DNA from: Eucalyptus grandis
Lineage: Eukaryota; Streptophyta; Magnoliopsida; Myrtales; Myrtaceae
Length of the DNA stretch: 64,000 nt
Direction of reading: 5' to 3'
Assembly: GCF_016545825.1 (NCBI RefSeq)
Contig: NC_052613.1
Location: 10,602,001-10,666,000 of the forward strand
A program made the position numbers and the translations under genes. The notes under the pieces are model-generated. The model searched no databases. It worked only from the letters and a program-made list of their open reading frames with translations, and was not told the origin of the DNA. Below, piece by piece: positions 3,400 through 50,876 of this stretch; position 1 is the stretch's first letter; every line of letters starts with the position of its first letter.

Positions 3400-4687
3400 G
3401 GAGGTTAGGACAAGAAAGAAATTAGCCATCTCTGATGATTACATCATAATTCTAATGAGTTGAACCATGATGTTGGCATAGGACCTAATCCTATCTCTTA
3501 TGATGAAGCCATTACAAGTGATCCGTCAACTCAATGATTTAAAGTCATGAAAAATGAGTTTAACTCTATGAAAGCTAATGATGTCTAGGACCTAGTAGAC
3601 TTGCCTAAAGGGGCCAAAGTTGTAGACTATAAATGGTCTATAAAACTAAGCTAGACTCCAAAGGTAATGTTGAAAGTTATAAAGCAAGATTGGTCACAAA
3701 AGGTTTTGCTCAAAGAGAAGGAATAGGTTATAGCGACACTTTCTTGCCTGTGTCAAAAGAGAATGACTCTTTCAGAATAGTCATGACATTGGTAGCTCAT
3801 TATGATTTAGAGCCACGTCAAATAAACATGGAAACATCATTTCTTAATGGAGGAAACCTACAAGAAGATGTCTATATGGCACAACCACAAGATTTTATGG
3901 CTAAGGGCAAGGAATACTTGAAATGCAAACTGAAAAAGTCCATCTATGATTTGAAACAAGCCCCAAGATAGTGATAACTTAAGTTTTATGATGTGATCAA
4001 TAATTTTGGCTTTGAAGAAAATATAGTGGAAACTTTAAGATTAGTGGGAGTAACTTCATCATTTTAGTATTGTATATAGATGATATACTACTTGTGAACA
4101 GTTGTACAAACATGTTATTTGAGACCAAGAGTCTTCTTTTGCATATTGAAATGAAAGACCTTCATGAAGCATCTTATGTTATAGGCATTGAGATTTACAG
4201 AGATAGATCTCAAAGGATCATAGGATTATCTTCAAGAGCCTATATTGAAAAGATTCTTGAGAGATTCAACATGCATAACTACTCTCCTAGTGTTGCCCAT
4301 GTTGTTAAGGGTGACAATTTCCGCTTACACATTTGGAGCATATTCCCTATGCATCTATTGTAGGGAGTATTATGTATGCTTAGGTATGTGCTTGTCTAGA
4401 TATAGTGTATGTTGTTGAAATGCTTGGCCATTACCAAATAAACCCAAGAATGGATCATTGGAAAGCGGCTAAGAAAGTGATACATAAATTAAAGGGTATA
4501 AAAGATTTTATGCTTTACCTACAATAGAACAGACAGCCTCAAGATTATTGGTTATTCTAATTATGCTGGGTGCATTGACACCAAGAAATTCAAATCATGT
4601 TACATTTCTATGCTCGCTAGAGGACTCAACTCATGGAAAAGTGCAAAGTAGTCTTTAACTGCATCTTCCACTATGGAAGCCGAGTTT
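3400..4687 (+). pseudogene. copia reverse transcriptase remnant
   Basis: Translation in broken frames shows family hallmarks: a KARLVTKGF motif, an AFLNG-like SFLNGG, a VYMAQP motif, the end of the KSIYDLKQAPR motif, and the catalytic YIDDILL at about 4073. An ALLAYSSRAYI-like thumb (SSRAYIEKILERFNM) follows. Stops at 3649-3651 and 3969-3971, among others, interrupt the frame. The enzyme would have copied element RNA into DNA, but this copy cannot encode it. Confidence 0.8.
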
Positions 4688-5448
4688 GGGCGCGTTTGGT
4701 TCGGCTATTGGGAAATGCCATTGGAAAAATGCAAATACCTTTAGGATGAAGGGGTTTTTTGAAATATTTTAGCGTGTGAAAAATTATAATTTAAAGTGCA
4801 TTGGAAAGTGACTTTGATGTAAATACCATTGTTAAACCCTACATTCAAAATGGCTTTTTAATTTAGAAAAAAAAAAATCAAGTCCAATGAAACTTTGTCA
4901 CCAACCAACGATCGACCACCCGCTCACGACCAGATCTAGCCACCAACAAGGCTAGCTAAGGTCGCGCAACCTTAAACAATGTCGTTTGGGTCTCACCATC
5001 AACCAAATATGGGTTCGCACAACCTAGGCAGGCATTGCTTGAGGTTGTGCAACTTCAAGCGTCACTTGGGTCTGATCGACCCAAGCATTAACCCAAATTT
5101 GGCCGCTAGCACGACCTTAGGTGGTGCTACCCGGGCCTTGCCAATGGCCAAATCTAGGTTCACCTAACCTCAAGTAGCCTCACAGGTGGTTGGCCGGCCT
5201 CTTGCAAGTATGGGAAGATGAATGCTCGGGGGGAAAAAGAAAAGGTCAACGGATGAATAGTAAAAGGTGGACTTGCATTTCCAAATGGACATAGCCTAGG
5301 GTAGGTCCGGATGTACGTTGGGCTTTTAGCATTTCCAATGCTAACATTTGACTAAGGGACTTCAAAAGATGCTTCCCAAATGCCTAATATTTTCCCAAAA
5401 AGGCTTTGGGGCTCAAAGACTTTTGGAAAAGCTGAATCATAAGGGGCC
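4688..5448. mobile_element. Harbinger/Tourist-like MITE inside copia RNase H
   Basis: The 761-bp insertion has ends GGGCGCGTTTGGTTCGGC and, inverted, GGCCCCTTATGATTCAGC, and is flanked by TTT at 4685-4687 and 5449-5451. Removing it rejoins the copia RNase H reading frame at the conserved ME-A-E-F / V-A-C-Y boundary, which fixes both borders. Related copies lie at 29270-30149 and 33859-37625. The open frame at 4979-5167 is internal to the MITE and not a gene. Confidence 0.8.
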
Positions 5449-5778
5449 TTTGTAGCATGTTATGAGGTGAGTTCTCATTGTTTATGGTTGAGAAACTTCA
5501 TTATGGGGCTTAAGGTAGTTGATAATATTTTGAGATCATTGAAGATTTATTGTAACAATCAGGATGCTATTTTCTCCTCGAACAAAAATAAGTCAAGTGG
5601 TGCATCCAAACACATGAACATTAAGTACCTAGTTGTGAGAGAAGGAGTCCAAAATCATAATGAATCCATTCGGTATATTAGTACAAAAGCCATGTTAGCG
5701 AATCTAATGACGAAAGGCTTACCACCCAATCTCTTTCAAGAACGTGTTGCTAGTATGGGTTTGGTTAATAGCCTTTAA
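5449..5778 (+). pseudogene. copia RNase H C-terminal remnant
   Basis: The frame resumes directly after the MITE and runs through an RNase H C-terminal part: the NQDAIFSSNKNKSSGASKH segment, then MNIKYLVVREGVQ, then MLANLMTKGLPP, ending just before a non-coding tail and the 3' LTR. It carries the usual copia order but is separated from its N-terminal half by the MITE. Confidence 0.75.
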
Positions 5779-11660: not shown

Positions 11661-11799
11661 CTAGGTTAAATGGAAGCATACCCTCTTATGGATATGTTGT
11701 ATCATTTCCCACATTCTGCTGTGGGGCCCGCGGATGAACACTTGTCTGCCATCTGTCGAGAGAGCAGGTGTGCTGGCATCAAAATAGAGGAAGGGAGGC

Positions 11800-12047
11800 C
11801 TACGTGGCAGACCTTGGACATGCACTCACTTTTAACTACAGTAGCTAGCCCCCTCACCAACTCTCTCTCTACTCTTCTACATGTTCTTCTAAAGTCTCCC
11901 TCTACTTTTTCCTTCAACGGTCAGTCCAAGCTTTTGCGGTTTGACCAGCTTAGTCTCTCTTATATTTCACACCAAGCGTCTCTCTCCCTCCCTCCTATCG
12001 AATTTTCTCTCTCTCTCTCTCTCTCTCTCTGGCCTTTGAGAAGGAAA
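11800..12047 (+). promoter_or_regulatory. Promoter and 5' leader of first MYB gene
   Basis: Direct signs are an ACGTGGC core (11802-11808, G-box/ABRE-like), a TATATTT TATA-like box at 11961-11967, and a pyrimidine-rich leader ending in an uninterrupted CT tract at 12006-12030, 17 bp before the ATG. Use of these elements is inferred. The CT tract just upstream of the start recurs at the second MYB gene. Confidence 0.45.
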
Positions 12048-13831
12048 ATGAGGAAGCCTTGTTGCGAGAAGAAAGGGACGATGAACAAAGGGGCGTGGAC
12101 AAAGCAAGAAGACCAAAAGCTCATTGACTACATACATAAACATGGCGAAGGTTGCTGGCGCTCTCTCCCCCAAGCTGCAGGTAATTTCGTGCACGAGTTT
12201 TTGCATTTTTCCTCTCCGCGTCGCTTTGAAACAGCGGTGGGCCCAGAAACTTACGTTACGAGCGAAACATAGAAATTCAAGCCAGGATGTAGTATAAACT
12301 ATCTATGATATTGGCAAAGAATTGCACCGAGACAACTGAAACCAAGCTACACGTAAAATGTTGCAATGCATGTACACTTCCCTTACTTGCAAGTAATTCT
12401 CGAAACTCTTGAAAAACTGTAATGTATGGTTGAGGTTTCTCTTTTTTATTTTTATTTTTTATTATTTTTTTGGCTTATTTGGGGGGTTTTATATCTGGTT
12501 TGTTTCAGGTTTGCTGCGTTGTGGGAAGAGCTGTCGACTGAGATGGGTCAACTACTTGAGACCAGACCTTAAACGTGGCAACTTTGGTGAGGATGAAGAA
12601 GACCTCATCATCAAGCTGCATGCACTCCTCGGAAATAGGTGAGAGCGAGACAGAGATGACACTTTCTCTTCATGCACAGCTTCGGTCTTCGAGTATTTAA
12701 TGAGGTTTTCCGTATGCATGTTTAGTCATTGCACTGCTCATGATTATATACTTGTATACATAATTAGAGGGAAAAAGAAGCCTTTTTTTTTTTTTTTTCC
12801 ATTGGAAATGCCCCAGAACAAGAAGAAACAATGTGAGATATTTCAAGAGAGAAGAAAGAAAAGCTCATTCTGGACTTGCTTTGGTATTCTTTGTTGATAA
12901 GTAGCATAATTATTGGGTATTTCATTAGACAAGATTGGCATTTGGTCTTCGCAAGTGTCAAGTCTGAAGAGCTTCACTGCTAAAATTAGAAGGTCGCTTT
13001 GAAAGTTAATAATCGACAGTTCAAATGGCAGAACAAAACGGAAGCTTTAGTAGTTTCGTTTCAGTAGACTAACAAGAAAGTACTCTGGCCTACTTAAGGT
13101 GCAATCCTTTTTCAAACTGAGCCAAAAGCTTCCAACTCCTCGTTCTGTTAGCTCACCACTGTAGTTTTTAGGACACTTGCATAAATTATTGGGACCTGCC
13201 GTCGGATTGAGCGATAGCTTTCGTTTTTCCGCGTTCTCGGTTGAACAACGTTAAATGATTCAACTATCTACTAAAAGTAAACGAAATGATTTGACAATGA
13301 TGTGGCCAAGTGGATAAAATTTTAACTGACAAAAATTTTTGTGTCCGTGTGTGTTTTGGAAATGTGAAATCCTTGTGCTCCTGATTGTTGAACAATCTAT
13401 TCGTACAAAAAGTACTAATCCCGGTGCAACAATCCATGTTCTGTTGACTCAGGTGGTCCCTCATTGCCGGAAGATTACCGGGACGGACAGACAATGAAGT
13501 GAAGAATTACTGGAACACCCACTTGAGAAGAAAACTCATGCAGATGGGGATTGATCCAAACAATCATCGGCCCCGACCTGCTGTCTCTGTTCCGAACAAA
13601 TCGGTCGGGTCAGACCATAGTTCAACGTGCAAACCCGAGAACTCGCAGGAAGAAGAAGACATAGGCTCTGTGCTGCAATGCTCGAGTAAACCCGAGAGCA
13701 ATACTGGCTTCCTGCCCGACCTGAATCTCGAACTCACAATAGGGCCCCCGTTGATCGAAGAGCGACTACAGTTATCGCACATAGACTCTACTCAACTTAG
13801 TTTCTCAAATTTTTCGACAGTTATAAGCTGA
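12048..13831 (+). CDS. R2R3-MYB repressor (subgroup 4 / FaMYB1-MYBC2-like), gene 1
   Basis: Three exons, 12048-12180, 12509-12638 and 13453-13831, join to 213 codons with GT-AG introns in phases 1 and 2, the canonical R2R3-MYB positions. The start is the [13 protein letters not shown]2 covers about residues 13-61 (W17, W37, W57) and R3 about 66-112 (F70, W89, W108). R3 carries the bHLH-contact signature D76-L77..K80...L84......L91...R95, expected for partners in MYB-bHLH-WD40 complexes. After R3 comes a C1-like GIDPNNHR (120-127), then an EAR-type repression core LNLEL at 178-182 within [12 protein letters not shown]. There is no terminal TLLLFR-type motif. The likely role is a nuclear repressor of anthocyanin, proanthocyanidin or phenylpropanoid genes. 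Clade placement is by motif, not by tree. Confidence 0.9.
13479..13499 (+). promoter_or_regulatory. Predicted miR858 target site in MYB gene 1
   Basis: The codons for P-G-R-T-D-N-E-V align with miR858: by hand, mismatches at miRNA positions 17 and 21 and G-U pairs at 1, 5, 14 and 20. Positions 9-12 around the slicing site are perfectly paired. miR858 is known to target this R3 region in other plant MYBs; cleavage here is inferred. Confidence 0.6.
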
Positions 13832-17134: not shown

Positions 17135-17413
17135 TCTCTCTCTCTCTCTCTCTCTCGGATTTTTCAACCATATGTCTTTTTTTTTTAACCAACCGTATGT
17201 CTTTGATATATCTAGAAAATCTCCAATTGACAAGTCAACTTCATGTACTTCACGGCGCCCTTGTGTTCTGTGCTACTTTCACAGCCCCACCTTTTATGTA
17301 GCTGAAAATCATATGCTCCTCTAACCTCCTGCTTTCTTTCTCTTCCCAGGAGCACACCCACCACTCTCTCTCTCTCTCTCTCTCTCTCCCTCCCTCTCTC
17401 TCTCTCTCACATA
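17135..17413 (+). promoter_or_regulatory. Promoter-proximal region and leader of second MYB gene
   Basis: Two pyrimidine microsatellites, CT at 17135-17156 and a longer CT tract at 17364-17408 interrupted by CCCTCC, lie upstream of the ATG at 17414. No clear TATA box is visible. The second tract sits at nearly the same place as the CT tract of MYB gene 1, so the leader was probably duplicated with the gene. Confidence 0.45.
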
Positions 17414-18345
17414 ATGAGGAATCCTTGTTGTGACAAGCAAAAGACCAACAAAGGAGCTTGGTCCGAGCAAGAGGACCAGAAGCTCATCGACTACGTCCAA
17501 AAGCACGGTGAGGGTAACTGGAATTCCCTGCCAAAAGCTGCAGGTAAACTTCTGTCCCCAATAGAATAGAAGAAGCCGAAAACAAGAAACATAAGTAAAA
17601 AAAAACGCGCATGTTTGTACGATTCTGTGAGCGTATTGAGATATAGAGCATGAGAAGTCCTTGAAGTTGCTTTCTTTCTCACTAGCCCTAATCATACTTA
17701 CCCTAATTATGCCACCCAGAAAAATTGTCAGTTATGTTAACGCTCTTGTTTTGATTGGAATAGGATTGCTTCGCTGTGGAAAAAGTTGTAGGCTAAGATG
17801 GCTGAACTATCTGAGGCCCGACCTTAAAAGAGGGAACTTTGGTGAGGATGAAGAGGACCTTATTATCAAGCTCCATGCTCTTCTAGGGAACAGGTTAGTG
17901 TGATTAATAACCTAGAAAATCAAAAGCAAATTCGTTCTGATCATACTAAAGTCGACATCGAAATAATCAGTTCATCCAAAAGCTGACGCAATATTGCTCC
18001 GTAAATTGTCTTTCTAGGTGGTCTCTCATAGCCGGAAGATTGCCCGGAAGGACAGATAATGAAGTGAAGAACTATTGGAACTCTCATCTACGGCGAAAGC
18101 TACTAAGCAAAGGCATCATTCACCGCCGACCATCAGCAGCAAAAATCAAATCCTCGACTGAGGATAAGACAGTTCATCAGTCAAGTGCAGCAATCTCCAT
18201 CAAAGAAAAAGGAGTATCACCAGATGGTGATCGTTTGGACCTCAAGCTCGGGGTGTCCGGTGGTCCGGCAAAGCACTCGAAGCATGCTCAAAGCAAGGAG
18301 ATTAACGGGGGGAAACCGTATACTACGTTACTATTGTTTAAATGA
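17414..18345 (+). CDS. R2R3-MYB repressor, MYBC2/MYB27-like (EAR + TLLLFK), gene 2
   Basis: Exons 17414-17543, 17764-17893 and 18018-18345 give 195 codons, with introns of 220 and 124 nt at the same phases (1 and 2) as gene 1. The start is [10 protein letters not shown]2 has W16, W36, W56; R3 has F69 and W88. The bHLH signature D75-L76..K79...L83......L90...R94 is intact. The C-terminus holds an EAR core LDLKL (160-164) and ends exactly with TLLLFK (190-195), a variant of the TLLLFR repression motif known from MYBC2, MYBL2 and MYB27-type repressors. The C1 GIDP motif is replaced by GIIHRRPS. R2 has GNW where gene 1 and most relatives have GCW. Expected role: nuclear repressor of flavonoid MYB-bHLH-WD40 activity. 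Exon 2 is nearly identical in protein to gene 1, indicating tandem duplication. Confidence 0.92.
18044..18064 (+). promoter_or_regulatory. Weaker miR858-like site in MYB gene 2
   Basis: This is the same codons as the gene 1 site. By hand it has mismatches at miRNA positions 16, 17, 20 and 21 and G-U pairs at 1, 5, 8 and 14, so pairing is clearly poorer. Regulation is possible but less likely than for gene 1. Confidence 0.4.
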
Positions 18346-38886: not shown

Positions 38887-40960
38887 ATGGCTAGAACCAT
38901 GATGATCGAAAGTGGTGTACCTACTTATTTTTGGGCTGAAGCTATTGCCATCACATGCTACACACTCAATAGAATACTATTGAGACATATGTACAAAAGA
39001 CTTTGTATGAAATCTTCAAAGAAAGAAAGCCTACTTTGCATTACTTCCATGTATCCAAATGCAAATGTTTCATTCTCAAGAATACAAATGACGACATCGA
39101 GAAGTTTGATACATAAGCTAATAAAGGTATTTTTCGTGGTTACTCAACTATGAGTAAGGCCTGTTGAGTCTTCAACAAAGATTCAAAGGTAGTAAAAGAA
39201 TCCATAAATGTAAAGTTCAAGGATGATGAAAAAATAAGTGCAAACTAATGACAACAAAGATACTATACAAATATTTGCACCGGTTACTTATAAACAGCAA
39301 CAACCACAACCACCAGTTGATCTTTCAAATCAAGGACAATCTTTAAAAGATTGGAGATTCAAGCCTAAGGATCCTAAGGAGCAGATTATAAGAAAGGCGG
39401 ATGAAGGAATCAAAACTAGATCGTCTCTCAAAAGCATGCTAAACTCCTTTGCTCTCATATCCCAATTCAAGCCTAAGGAAGTAGAAAATGCTCTCAAGGA
39501 TGAGAACTATATTAAAGCTATGCAAGAGGAATTACATCAATTCAAAGTCAACAATTTATGGAAACTGGTTGCAAGACTCAAGGATCAAACAATAGTAGGA
39601 ACCAAATAGGTATTTTGAAATAAACTTGATGAAGCATGTAATGTTATACACAACAAGTCAAGATTAGTTGCTAAAGAATACCTATAGGAGATAGGTATTA
39701 ATTTTGATGAAACTCATGCTCCTATTACTAGATTAGAAGCTATATGTATATTGTTACCTTATGCTTCCTTTCATAATTTTATACTACATCAAATGCATGT
39801 CAAAAGTACATTTCTAAATGGACATATCAAAGAAAAAGTATATGTTGAGCAACCTCTAGGTTTTGAAGAATCAAGAAAATCTAGTAATATCTATCGTCTC
39901 AAGAAGGTGCTATATGGCTAAAACAAGCACCTAGAGCTTGGTACAAAAGAATTTAAGTAACTTTTTGACGGATCATGAATTTGAAAAAAGTAATGTAGAC
40001 ACTACTCTCTTTATGAAAAGGAAAAGTAAAGACTTGCTCATTGTTCAAATATATCTTAATGATATAATTGTTAGAGCCACTAGCGATGTAATGTGTAAGG
40101 ATTTTGCAAACATGATGAAAAATGAGTTCGAGACGAGCCTAATTGGAGAACTAAATTTCTTTCTTGGATTTCAACTCAAGCAAACTCCTGAAGGCATCTT
40201 CATACATCAAACATCAAGAAAAGTATGCAAAGGAAATAGTAAAGAAATTTGGTTTGGAATAATGTAAGAAAATTGAAACATCCATGTCATGCTTTATCAA
40301 GTTGGATAAAGATAAGAAAGTTAAGTTTGTCAACTCCAAACTATATAAAAGTATGATAGGATCATTACTATACTTAATAGCATCTAGACTTGATATTTTA
40401 TTGAGCACTTGCTTGTGTGCTTGTTTTCAATCTAATCCAAATGAATCTCACTTATTAGTTATTAAGCAAATTATTCAATATATCAGATCCACTCCAAAAT
40501 TAGGGATCTAGTATCCCAAAAAATACAAATTTTATATTGCTTGGATACTTGAATGCTAAATTTACAAGTTGTAAGTAAATAAAAAGAGTACATCAAGTAC
40601 TTGCTAACTGCTAGGCAGCATGCTAATCTCTCGATTCTCAAAGAAACAAAATTCAGTTGCTCTTTCAACCACTGAGTCTGAATACATTGTTCTCGAAAGT
40701 TGTTTCGCACAACTTATTTGCATGAAACAACAACTCAGTGATTTCGGAGAAGAGGGAGAATATATTCCTATTATGTGTGACAATAATAGTGCTATAAATC
40801 TTGCCAAGAATCCAAACTTATACTCAAGAGCAAAACATATCGAGGTAAGGCATCACTTCATTATAGATCATGTTAGCAATGGTGAAATCTATATATAATT
40901 TGTAGAATCAAAACATCAGTTAACAGACATTTTCACCAAGCCGCTAGATAAGCTAGCCTT
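38887..40960 (+). pseudogene. Sirevirus pol remnant (integrase end, RT, RNase H)
   Basis: Motifs seen in three frames: FWAEAIAITCYTLNR (integrase C-part), AMQEELHQFKVNNLWKLV then a GTK, SRLVAKEYL, ETHAPITRLEAI, KSTFLNGHIKEKVYVEQPLG, VQIYLNDIIVRATS (the YVDD position reads YLND), LNFFLGFQLKQTPEGIF, and RNase H VALSTTESEYIVLESC, DNNSAINLAKNPN and RAKHIEVRHHF. The changed catalytic motif and stops make it inactive. Confidence 0.8.
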
Positions 40961-46413: not shown

Positions 46414-47225
46414 GATGCTGACTCAATTTCGTCAAGAAGTACAGTACTCTCGATTCTATTGAGTTTATTGCAAAACTCATCCTGATGGAATCACGCGTAT
46501 CTTTCAAAAAGTAGAAGGATAAGCCGAAAGTATCTATGAACAGTTTGACACCTCAAATCCCTTTCCGACGTGTGAAATGATCTTTAGCATAACCTTCGAA
46601 GTAATTTATCTGCCTAACTTAAGAAAACCCGATCTTTTCTATAACACCAATAATGCTTTTGAAACAAACATCTGTAAAATCGTCTGGCTTTGATCTTCAA
46701 GCCTTATGAACTATGCATAATACATTGTTCGATATTCCTACAACTCTAAGTGCAGATGAACTCATCTTTGGACCCTTATCTGAAATTTAACTCCCTTCTT
46801 ACCTATTTCTTTTACATTTATACACAAGTAGATTCCCTGATCATAGAAGAAATTGTTGACACCGATCAAAATGATTGTTGGAAAAGAGAGTACAACTGCC
46901 AACCTAATTTAATACTTGTTACAGCTGGTAAATTAGGTCATCGCACGAGTGGCTTGCACAAAGTTCAAGTTTTGTCCTTTTCTCCTTTTTGAAATGCAAC
47001 AATGAAAATTTTCCAATTTTGAAGAGTTGGAGGAAACCATATCATTTAGTGATTGCCCCGGAATTGTCCATGTCCACACATACTTTAAATAAAGGATCAA
47101 ATTTATAAATTTTAATGGAAGTTTGCCATTGGTTGAGATCAAAATGTTAGGTGGAAAAAGGGCACACAGCAGGCTTTATGCACACGAGGCTTAAAACTGT
47201 GGCAGTCCTCGCGATTACTCTTCAA
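46414..47225. other. Spacer upstream of MIR858
   Basis: A frame from about 46410 to 46690 reads through with two stops (VEG/AESIYEQFDTSNPFP, then ITFEVIYLPNLRKPDLF). It may be an old coding relic, but I recognise no family. Confidence 0.35.
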
Positions 47226-47234
47226 CGAGAGCCC

Positions 47235-47279
47235 TATAAACTCTATCTCACTCTCTCTATCTCTCTCTCTCTCTCTCTC
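47235..47279 (+). promoter_or_regulatory. Putative MIR858 core promoter and CT tract
   Basis: A clean TATAAA at 47235-47240 (GCCCTATAAACTC) is followed 10-40 bp downstream by a CT microsatellite (47251-47279), where transcription would start. The arrangement resembles the CT-rich leaders of both MYB genes here. Promoter use is inferred. Confidence 0.6.
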
Positions 47280-47372
47280 GAGCACAGCTACCCTTGAAAA
47301 TCTAGGTTCGAACCCTCCATTCTCTCTCTCCCTCCCTCTCCTTCGACACCCCCACCCCCATCTGAAAGTCAA

Positions 47373-47570
47373 ATGCTCCTCTCTAATGGACAGTCAAACC
47401 CTCCGTGTTTCTATAAGATAGGTGAAGTTCTCACCGATCAAAATGAGCTCCTGTTCAAACTCTTTTTTATTATCATTGGCATGCCCTTACTCAAATTCCA
47501 TCGTGTTCATTTTCGTTTGGAGAGTTTCCATTGGTTTGATGGAAGACTTAGCTTGAAAGTCTTTCCCTAA
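47373..47570 (+). CDS. Leader ORF of the MIR858 transcript (65 codons)
   Basis: An ATG-started frame, MLLSNGQSNPPCFYK and onward to a stop, lies between the putative start site and the hairpin, ending 54 nt before the stem. A peptide-coding primary transcript (miPEP858a) is known for Arabidopsis MIR858a. I see no evidence beyond position that this frame is translated or related to it. Confidence 0.25.
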   Translation: MLLSNGQSNPPCFYKIGEVLTDQNELLFKLFFIIIGMPLLKFHRVHFRLESFHWFDGRLSLKVFP

Positions 47571-47673
47571 ATGGGAAAAAATGTCTTCTTTCATGCGCTT
47601 TTAATTCATCCGTGAGAGTGGTTTCCATGCTGTCTCTTGGCGAGTGAACAGTTGGCTTGGGGGTGATCCTTTA

Positions 47674-47694
47674 TTTCGTTGTCTGTTCGACCTT
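47674..47694 (+). ncRNA. Mature miR858
   Basis: The 21 nt start TTTCGTTG and end TTCGACCTT. This equals my recollection of Arabidopsis miR858a, and the frame shifted by one equals miR858b. The antisense spells the MYB R3 codons for G-R-T-D-N-E. Its surroundings show no other MYB residues, so it is not a MYB pseudogene read backwards. Confidence 0.88.
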
Positions 47695-47737
47695 GAACTT
47701 TTCTTGAGCTTCATCTGGCGCATGCTATTTTTCTGAG

Positions 47738-48691
47738 GTAATGTACTAAGACAGCATTATATTTGCGTCTGCCTAAGGGAAACAATTTCTTCGCATAGAT
47801 GAATCTTCTCGAGAATGCGTCTCAGATATAAAAAAGGGTTTATTTGACACTTCCTTTGGATGAGCTCCTCTTTCTTTTCTCTATGTTTTTTGGCCCTAGA
47901 AGAAGAAATGAGCCACTCATTCACTAGGAACTGAAATTTTGAGCTAATTTTTCGTGCTTTTGCATTTCTATGTTCTCCTTTACGAACATTTTGGTAGCAG
48001 AAGAATATGTTTAAGCATCTAATGAAAGTCTTGAAATTAATTTGGATTCACATGCTTGATATTTAGAATAATCGGATTTTTTTTTTTTTTGGTCAAAAAA
48101 TAATGAGATATTGGATCGCTCTGGAATGTACTTCCATGATATTAGCTTTCTGCCAACTAAGATTGACTTGTCACTTAGGGTTCAATGTAGGAAAGGTGAA
48201 TGCCTTGCATGTCCTGTTGCCTGCTTGAAGAAGGCGGTAGATGATTAAACGTTTTGCGACTATGAATAGGAAGGGAATTTTCTTTGGCGATCCCAATATT
48301 CATTCTTTTATCAGTTGATTTTATATGGACGCAAAATCTATCAAAATCAGAAAGATTATGGAACTTACTATCTCACGCATCACATGACATTTATTATAAA
48401 TATGCCATCTGACAATCTGAGTACTACAAGTTAATGCATATCATTTATTGTGGTATTATGTGACCGCAGAAGATGTTGAATTTTGGTTAGCTACGAGTAT
48501 TTTACATTAAATAACTTTTGTTTCTAATCCGAATTGATTTCTTTATATATATATATAGATTAAACCCGTGTGTCTGATCTAGAAAGAATAATTGGGTATT
48601 AGTTACAAATTAAATTCAAGCAACGTCGCTCCTGTACTGAGCTAATGAAGCGAAATGTTAAGGCAAAATATCTGCTAAACCTAGTTTTCAG
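47738..48691 (+). other. Putative intron in the MIR858 loop
   Basis: A GAG/GTAATG donor at 47738 and a CTAAACCTAGTTTTCAG acceptor ending at 48691, with a branch-like CTAAAC, would remove 954 nt and leave a loop of roughly 120-130 nt. The interior is T-rich, with a T tract near 48078. It is predicted from consensus only. Confidence 0.45.
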
Positions 48692-48797
48692 GAAGACAGA
48701 AGAAATAAATAACCATAATTGAATCGAATTGAGTCGATTCAAATGAACAACCAACGCAAGGTTTGAAGTGAGAGCGAGTTGTTAGAGAGAAGACCAA

Positions 48798-48818
48798 GGT
48801 CGGACAGACGGCGAAATT
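48798..48818 (+). ncRNA. Predicted miR858* strand
   Basis: Includes GGTCGGACAGACGGCGAAA, fully paired to miR858 with three G-U pairs. The exact ends assume the normal two-base 3' overhangs. Confidence 0.65.
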
Positions 48819-48863
48819 GAGGTGCAAGCAAGAACTGTTTGCTCGACAAGGGTTTTGCATGGA

Positions 48864-50268
48864 CACCAAGGCACTCCACTTTTCAAGCGCTCGGTCAATC
48901 ATCCCAGTAATTGCCTTCTTAAATGCATCTATGTCAGGTATCTCTGGGTGCGCGCGTGCGCGCGTGGGGGTGCGTGGGTTTTGTGTTTACATAAATCAAG
49001 TGCAGCTCTAGCTCGGAGGAATCTTCATGAACTTATGTTAATGAGGAGCTAAATCCTTGCAAGTTCTCGGGTCCCGACATCGATGTCAGTATATTTCACA
49101 AAACAAATTGGATGTGCCGTGGATGGATTCGATCTGTCAACTGAAGCTCAATCAGGATGCCGACTTACGGGATCGCGTTGCCCCAAAAAAACGACAGCCT
49201 GATTGATGGTTTCGCAAGGAACCAATTTGTGATATGATCGCGATTCATGTATAGTTAATGAATTCATGCAATATAGTTCTTGAGATATGCCTAGTCGATT
49301 GACACGGGGTTTCATTCTTTCGGTCAATATTCGATCTTCTTTTTTTATCCATTGCAATTATTATTATGGTGAGCAATTGATCTGCGAGAAATTTAGGCCA
49401 TCAATCAGAGATGAAGTGAAGTGTGCATGAGAAATTTCACCAACCTTTCTCGCTATCTTAAGCCAAGTGACTGCATGTCGCTGTGTATTTAGTCCACGGA
49501 ATATCTTTTTCTCCATTACTGGAGTGTAGTACCCTTAAAGTATAAATAAAAACGATCTCTGACAATAACTCCAATTGCAACTTTTGTATTGTCTCCAACA
49601 AAAGCCCCATCACATTCACTTTTAACTCAATCTCCATTAGGCTTTTGCCAACATTTGGGCAACGTTTGGTGAACCAGATATAATGCAGCCAGCGTTTGGG
49701 GTAATGTGAAGTCCGGATACATCCAGATATGATTTGAATATAGCCCGGATAAAAAAATCTCACTTAAAAGGTGGGATATAGCCAGTTAAGATAAGAATCA
49801 AAAAGAAAAATTATGAGCTAAAACAGAGGGAAAAGGATTCACTGGCCCATCCGGCCACACCTTCGCCTGAGAACTTGGGACTGTTCATTCTTTGCTCTGG
49901 GTTTACAGAAAGTAAAATAAATTCAGTGTGGCCCAATTCACATTTTCAATGACTTTCATTTCTCCCCTGCAAGACATGCCAACAGATGAAAACACGCCTT
50001 CTGAGGAAACCTCGTGTTCCTTTACCTATACCCAAGATAGTGTATTGCAGCCATTGGCCAGTCGAAGTTATTCTCTCCTTCTGCAGTCTTTATGCCAAAT
50101 AACTAAACAAAACAGCTCTACTCGATTCATACAGGAGAATAAGGTGCTTCACAGGTTCAGATTTAGGGGATGAACGGATCCTTCTAAGGAATGCATTTCC
50201 TGAGGTGGCAATTGCTCCAGAACAGAGTTGTCAGAGAAGATGTTTCATTTTTTGGGTATAATCATTCT
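48864..50268. other. Spacer after MIR858
   Basis: Contains an alternating CG/TG tract (GTGCGCGCGTGCGCGCGTG, about 48948-48966) that could adopt Z-form, just after a CAG/GTATCT donor-like site. Otherwise no gene is recognised. The frame at 49458-49763 (-) is unsupported. Confidence 0.45.
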
Positions 50269-50269
50269 A

Positions 50270-50876
50270 CCACAAGTTGCTGTCAATATGCACGGACGTG
50301 GAAGCTGCAAAATGAGACTTCAGGGAAGCTCATTTCCTGAGGAAATGATAGGCAGATCTGACTGAGAGGGATGCCACTCCCTCTTCTCCCTATGCCACCA
50401 AAGTTTGTCTGGACCCCTCACTCTACTAAGTGGATACTAAAAATGTTCTCTGCTCTTGCACATTTAAGAGATGTCGGTTATCTGTCAAATTGCAGCAGCC
50501 TGTGTCCACATGTAAAATTTCTTCAACTTTTTTCTTAACTACATCAGATTCAGCAAAGGTGTGAAGCATAGGAATCCAACCATCCTTCCAGATTCGGACA
50601 CTTCTTCCATCCCCAATATGCCAAATACCCCCTTCCTTCAAGAATTTCAGACCTTCACATGTGGTATTCCATCTCCAGGAAGCTCTTTCCCCTTCTCTAG
50701 CATTCAGAAATTCATGCTTAGGAAGATAGAGCCTATTCAGAATCCTCAACCAGAGTTCTTCAGGATTACTATATACTCTCCAAGCTAGTTTCGCAAGGAA
50801 AGTAGGTAGGGATGCATTAAAAGTGTCGAAAACCAAATCCCCCTTCCGCCTTGGGCTAAGGTTATAACCTCCCAAC
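50270..50876 (-). pseudogene. LINE reverse-transcriptase C-terminal fragment
   Basis: The minus-strand product of 50426-50875 shows the conserved plant LINE segment: FLAKLAWRVYSNPEELWLRI, LYLPKHEFLNAREG, SWRWNTTCEGL, GGIWHIGDGRSVRIWKDGWI. The preceding PKAEGGFGFRHF is in a different frame (shift near 50815). A following SVRSAYHFLRK in another frame near 50340 extends the match toward the zf-RVT region. It is truncated at both ends. Confidence 0.8.

Follow-up and report, generated by a model that had tools for sequence, protein, structure and literature searches.

The window analysed here, a 64-kb stretch of Eucalyptus grandis DNA, contains the 21-mer TTTCGTTGTCTGTTCGACCTT in a single exact copy, on the forward strand at 47674-47694. 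This sequence, which is identical to miR858, would be the 5p product of a hairpin whose other arm lies downstream on the same strand. When up to three mismatches were tolerated, a search of the window returned just these two arms, against an expectation of zero. Between 47673-47695 and 48795-48817 there are 23 consecutive pairs, three of them G:U, with no mismatch, an unbroken run in keeping with the few mismatches allowed in a miRNA/miRNA* duplex. The 2-nt 3′ overhang geometry places the predicted star (miR858*, 3p) at 48798-48818 (forward strand), so that 1103 nt separate the end of the miRNA from the start of the star. An earlier sequence-only reading of this DNA had proposed miR858 with a matching segment 1.1 kb away and had expected star reads from 48798-48818; the exact 21-mer and the 23 pairs bear out the first proposal, and the overhang placement agrees with the second. 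No family in Rfam matched any part of the window at its gathering score, and around the locus all hits were weak and to unrelated families, the best having an E of 1.6. Viral contigs scanned with the 21-mer gave no match, and scanning them for a degenerate form of the star picked up a single stretch, estimated to be at chance level.

Two related R2R3-MYB genes of the repressor type, placed at about 12.05-13.83 kb and 17.41-18.35 kb, lie 30-36 kb from MIR858, in 11670-13831 (MYB-A) and 17321-18345 (MYB-B). Both encoded proteins match Pfam Myb models, and the joined exons of MYB-A give a protein of 213 amino acids that matches "transcription factor MYB3 [Eucalyptus grandis]" from end to end with 100% identity. 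Besides the two hairpin arms, the sites in the window with a penalty of 7 or less are just the codons for GRTDNE in these two genes, which are complementary to miR858 and correspond to the third-helix region of the R3 repeat. With a site at 13479-13499 (forward strand; penalty 4.5), MYB-A is a plausible predicted target. The site in MYB-B (18044-18064, forward strand) is weak, as is the case for this gene as a target: its penalty of 7.0 exceeds the cut-offs of 4.5-5 given in the accessible part of a study in peach (PMC3542160). Read as protein, the arms themselves resemble a MYB peptide: the 3′ arm gives GRTDGEIEV, and the antisense strand of the 5′ arm gives GRTDNEIKDH. This likeness hints slightly at an origin of MIR858 from an inverted MYB fragment, most of it being forced by the miRNA complementarity itself.

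Elsewhere in the window, the broken frames at 3633-5778 and 39238-40267 resemble copia-type retrotransposon polyproteins when judged by eye, and a frame on the reverse strand at 50426-50875 resembles, by the same kind of judgement, the terminal part of a reverse transcriptase protein of LINE type.

The extended stem

Pairing between the arms continues well beyond the duplex, where it is interrupted by bulges and internal loops on either side. Cofolding of the arms, confined to 47580-47737 and 48745-48900, gave 94 pairs in 17 helices joining 47595-47726 with 48767-48890; a wider cofold raised the number of inter-arm pairs to 102. The lower stem comprises 47595-47673 on the 5′ arm, with helices to 48817-48890, and 48819-48890 on the 3′ arm, while the upper stem comprises 47695-47726, with helices to 48767-48795, and 48767-48797 on the 3′ arm (all forward strand). 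When the unspliced RNA was folded as a molecule of 1371 nt, about 78 pairs were expected, made up of 48.3 in the lower stem, 21 in the duplex and 8.2 in the upper stem; lengthening the RNA to 1786 nt reduced the lower-stem figure to 40.1. The 78 expected pairs come close to the roughly 80 bp of stem proposed from the letters alone.

Folded as a duplex, 47600-47760 and 48700-48900 reach an energy of -119.6 kcal/mol, about 7 standard deviations below the mean of 300 dinucleotide shuffles (mean -74.1, s.d. 6.5, lowest -96.1). Among 620 real segment pairs spaced about 1.1 kb apart on both strands of the window it ranks third, and both pairs that score better come from a single inverted repeat at approximately 1.0-2.2 kb, counted once on each strand. 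This transposon-like repeat has 218-nt arms (1058-1275 and 1992-2209) that are 81% complementary and spaced 716 nt apart, and a second pair of arms at 1324-1426 and 1893-1995. The MIR858 arms were absent from the inverted repeats reported by a repeat finder that relies on exact seeds of 9 bases; they were missed because G:U pairs are uncounted there, and duplex folding reveals them.

Could the arms then be a degenerate or unexpressed copy of MIR858, or a transposon-like inverted repeat that gives rise to siRNAs? Other inverted repeats are present in the window, that at 1058-1275 and 1992-2209 among them. However, 23 positions without a mismatch between bulged flanks form the pattern of a selected miRNA, and the conserved mature sequence is exact, which together make such an origin very improbable.

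Transcription of the locus, dicing of its product and targeting of MYB mRNAs are inferred steps. Transcription by Pol II might start near 47265, downstream of a TATA-like box (CCCTATAAAC) matched by pattern at 47235-47240 on the forward strand; there is a second TATA-like match at 47104. The first ATG after the putative start opens a frame of 65 codons (47373-47570), a candidate miPEP858, whose length was reached in 2.6% of 5000 shuffles and for which no relatives sharing words with it were found. Once folded into the long imperfect stem with its arms 1.1 kb apart, the transcript would be cut by DCL1 to release the miR858/miR858* duplex of 47674-47694 with 48798-48818. The miRNA would then guide the cleavage of R2R3-MYB mRNAs where they encode the R3 motif GRTDNE. 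On this model the working element would be the stem, with a kilobase loop that is tolerated and whose splicing may be optional.

Splice sites and composition of the loop

Most of the loop can be read as a putative GT-AG intron of 954 nt (47738-48691, forward strand). The sequence-only reading had noted a consensus donor and acceptor at these positions, and both are present and strong. Sites in 47100-49300 were scored with an approximate plant matrix. The donor (GAG|GTAATG, with its GT at 47738) reaches 7.67 and ranks second of 108 GT sites, while 7.61 for the acceptor (TTTTCAG|G, ending at 48691) is the highest score of 119 AG sites. Equal or higher scores occur at 1.6% of 3051 GT and 1.2% of 3758 AG on the forward strand of the window. 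Both values are within what the presumed introns of MYB-A and MYB-B show (6.78-10.11 for donors and 5.93-9.44 for acceptors), and judged on these scores the two sites would be good enough for splicing.

These sites are the starting point for the reading in which MIR858 is split by an intron, as are miR444 and miRtop14: splicing would shorten the loop to some 117-149 nt, lengthen the upper stem, and be needed for miR858 or tune it. The control stretches cut both ways. A donor and a downstream acceptor that equal or exceed those at MIR858 in strength occur in 65 of 437 overlapping 1076-nt stretches, taken from both strands with those touching the MYB genes or the MIR858 locus omitted, so strength by itself is not unusual. 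A pair of this kind placed just inside both ends, as in the MIR858 loop, was found in two of the 437, by a placement test that was set post hoc. Composition is similarly two-sided: the putative intron has a GC content of 0.336, compared with 0.433-0.508 in most of the flanks, but the 79 nt that follow the acceptor have a similarly low GC content (0.342). Taken together, the splice-site evidence for an intron is modest.

The A+T-rich loop might also have been enlarged by a transposable element without any splicing, which would be compatible with a long-loop MIR858 gene. Its length is far above that of a canonical loop, and a commentary reports that various taxa carry transposable elements in their MIR858 loops (PMC11062420). 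Nevertheless, blastn within the window gave no convincing second copy of the loop, the best match being 38 nt at 84% in the T-rich stretch, and the loop contains no long inverted repeat except a TA run; insertion of an element here is possible but doubtful. That same best match led to rejection of the idea that the loop is a repeat copied within the window.

Folding with and without the putative intron

Four forms of the precursor were folded, unspliced and spliced, each in a short and a long version. In all four, the 21 duplex pairs have a mean probability of 0.999 (lowest 0.99). The duplex is predicted with or without the intron, and therefore splicing is not needed for it; obligatory splicing for hairpin formation was rejected on this result. 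What splicing would alter is the upper stem, in which the expected pairs rise from 8.2 to 25.9. The comparison of spliced and unspliced folds that the sequence-only reading had suggested is hence split in its outcome, with an identical duplex in both forms and a longer upper stem in the spliced one. Removal of the 954 nt would leave 149 nt between miRNA and star, or 117 nt above the helix at 47707-47709, so its estimate of a spliced loop of about 120-130 nt was about right.

Joining of the putative exon ends would create an 8-bp terminal hairpin, but hairpins as stable arose in 26.6% of 1000 shuffles, and the notion that the ends are built to pair was discarded. When 40 GT-AG combinations were ordered by energy per base, the 47738/48691 pair came third, and every one of the best combinations has its donor and acceptor no more than a few bases from these positions; the ranking reflects mainly how much of the loop is removed.

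Long-loop and intron-split precursors

The spacing of the arms has a precedent within the family. According to a commentary, Wang et al. (2024, Plant Cell) describe MIR858 genes across seed plants with conserved stems and with loops that range from about 300 nt to more than 4000 nt, which are processed in transient assays in a DCL1-dependent manner and whose efficient processing needs the stem and not the loop (PMC11062420). The vast majority of plant MIRNA foldbacks are shorter than 336 nt (PMC11062420). In Jerusalem artichoke, according to the available part of a second paper, assembled transcripts termed spliced carry four miR858 precursors, 1524-6448 nt long; cloning did not verify these precursors, and two of them have a star taken from other libraries (PMC11945104). 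That part also quotes a range of 350-5500 nt from Wang et al.

The E. grandis locus shares with these genes the mature miRNA, the long stem and a kilobase-scale loop, and its 1103 nt are within the reported range. It fits the long-loop class in every feature tested and no tested feature sets it apart. Splice sites that bound the loop go unmentioned in the accessible portions of PMC11062420 and PMC11945104. We conclude that the locus is very probably E. grandis MIR858 with the long-loop architecture known from other seed plants, an architecture for which the published MIR858 genes already account. The claim that an intron is required to account for the 1.1-kb spacing is not upheld, since the same duplex is predicted in the unspliced RNA (0.999) and long-loop MIR858 precursors are reported to be processed.

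Beyond its loop, the long-loop MIR858 gene resembles canonical short plant MIRNA genes in its clean duplex with predicted 2-nt overhangs and in the 15 nt (47695-47709) that separate the duplex and the first large loop; it differs in an unspliced foldback of about 1.3 kb, compared with less than 336 nt. To the intron-split genes, miR444 of monocots and miRtop14, it is akin in having good splice sites between miRNA and star and a short loop if these are used. miRtop14 is a Solanaceae miRNA whose authors, in the text available, are aware of no other intron-split miRNA beyond miR444, and a non-spliceable form of its precursor yields almost no miRNA (PMC11706861). This offers a precedent for splicing that matters. 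However, miRtop14 needs splicing, whereas the MIR858 duplex is predicted without it and long MIR858 loops are, in the portions of the two papers available, found on transcripts and described as processed unspliced (PMC11062420, PMC11945104). No report of a spliced MIR858 loop emerged from the listings and passages searched, which covered Wang et al. (2024) through the commentary and citing papers. Strong splice sites, their rare placement and the longer upper stem argue for an intron-split gene, while the duplex at 0.999 unspliced, equally strong sites in 65 controls, a terminal hairpin no better than shuffles and the A+T-rich sequence beyond the acceptor argue against it; on balance this reading is unlikely.

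As a long-loop gene, the locus adds a Eucalyptus example to the published class of MIR858 genes, and it is a neighbour of two MYB genes with predicted miR858 sites. Hairpin finders that limit size would overlook such a gene. It is conceivable, though improbable, that the loop is a true regulated intron, such that spliced and unspliced precursors coexist, the spliced form is diced better, and splicing tunes miR858 and with it the MYB regulators of flavonoids and lignin. If so, MIR858 would be an intron-split miRNA beyond miR444 and miRtop14, and would show a route from a long-loop to an intron-split precursor that links two oddities of plant miRNAs. It would also offer a splicing handle on a regulator of flavonoids and lignin in a wood crop.
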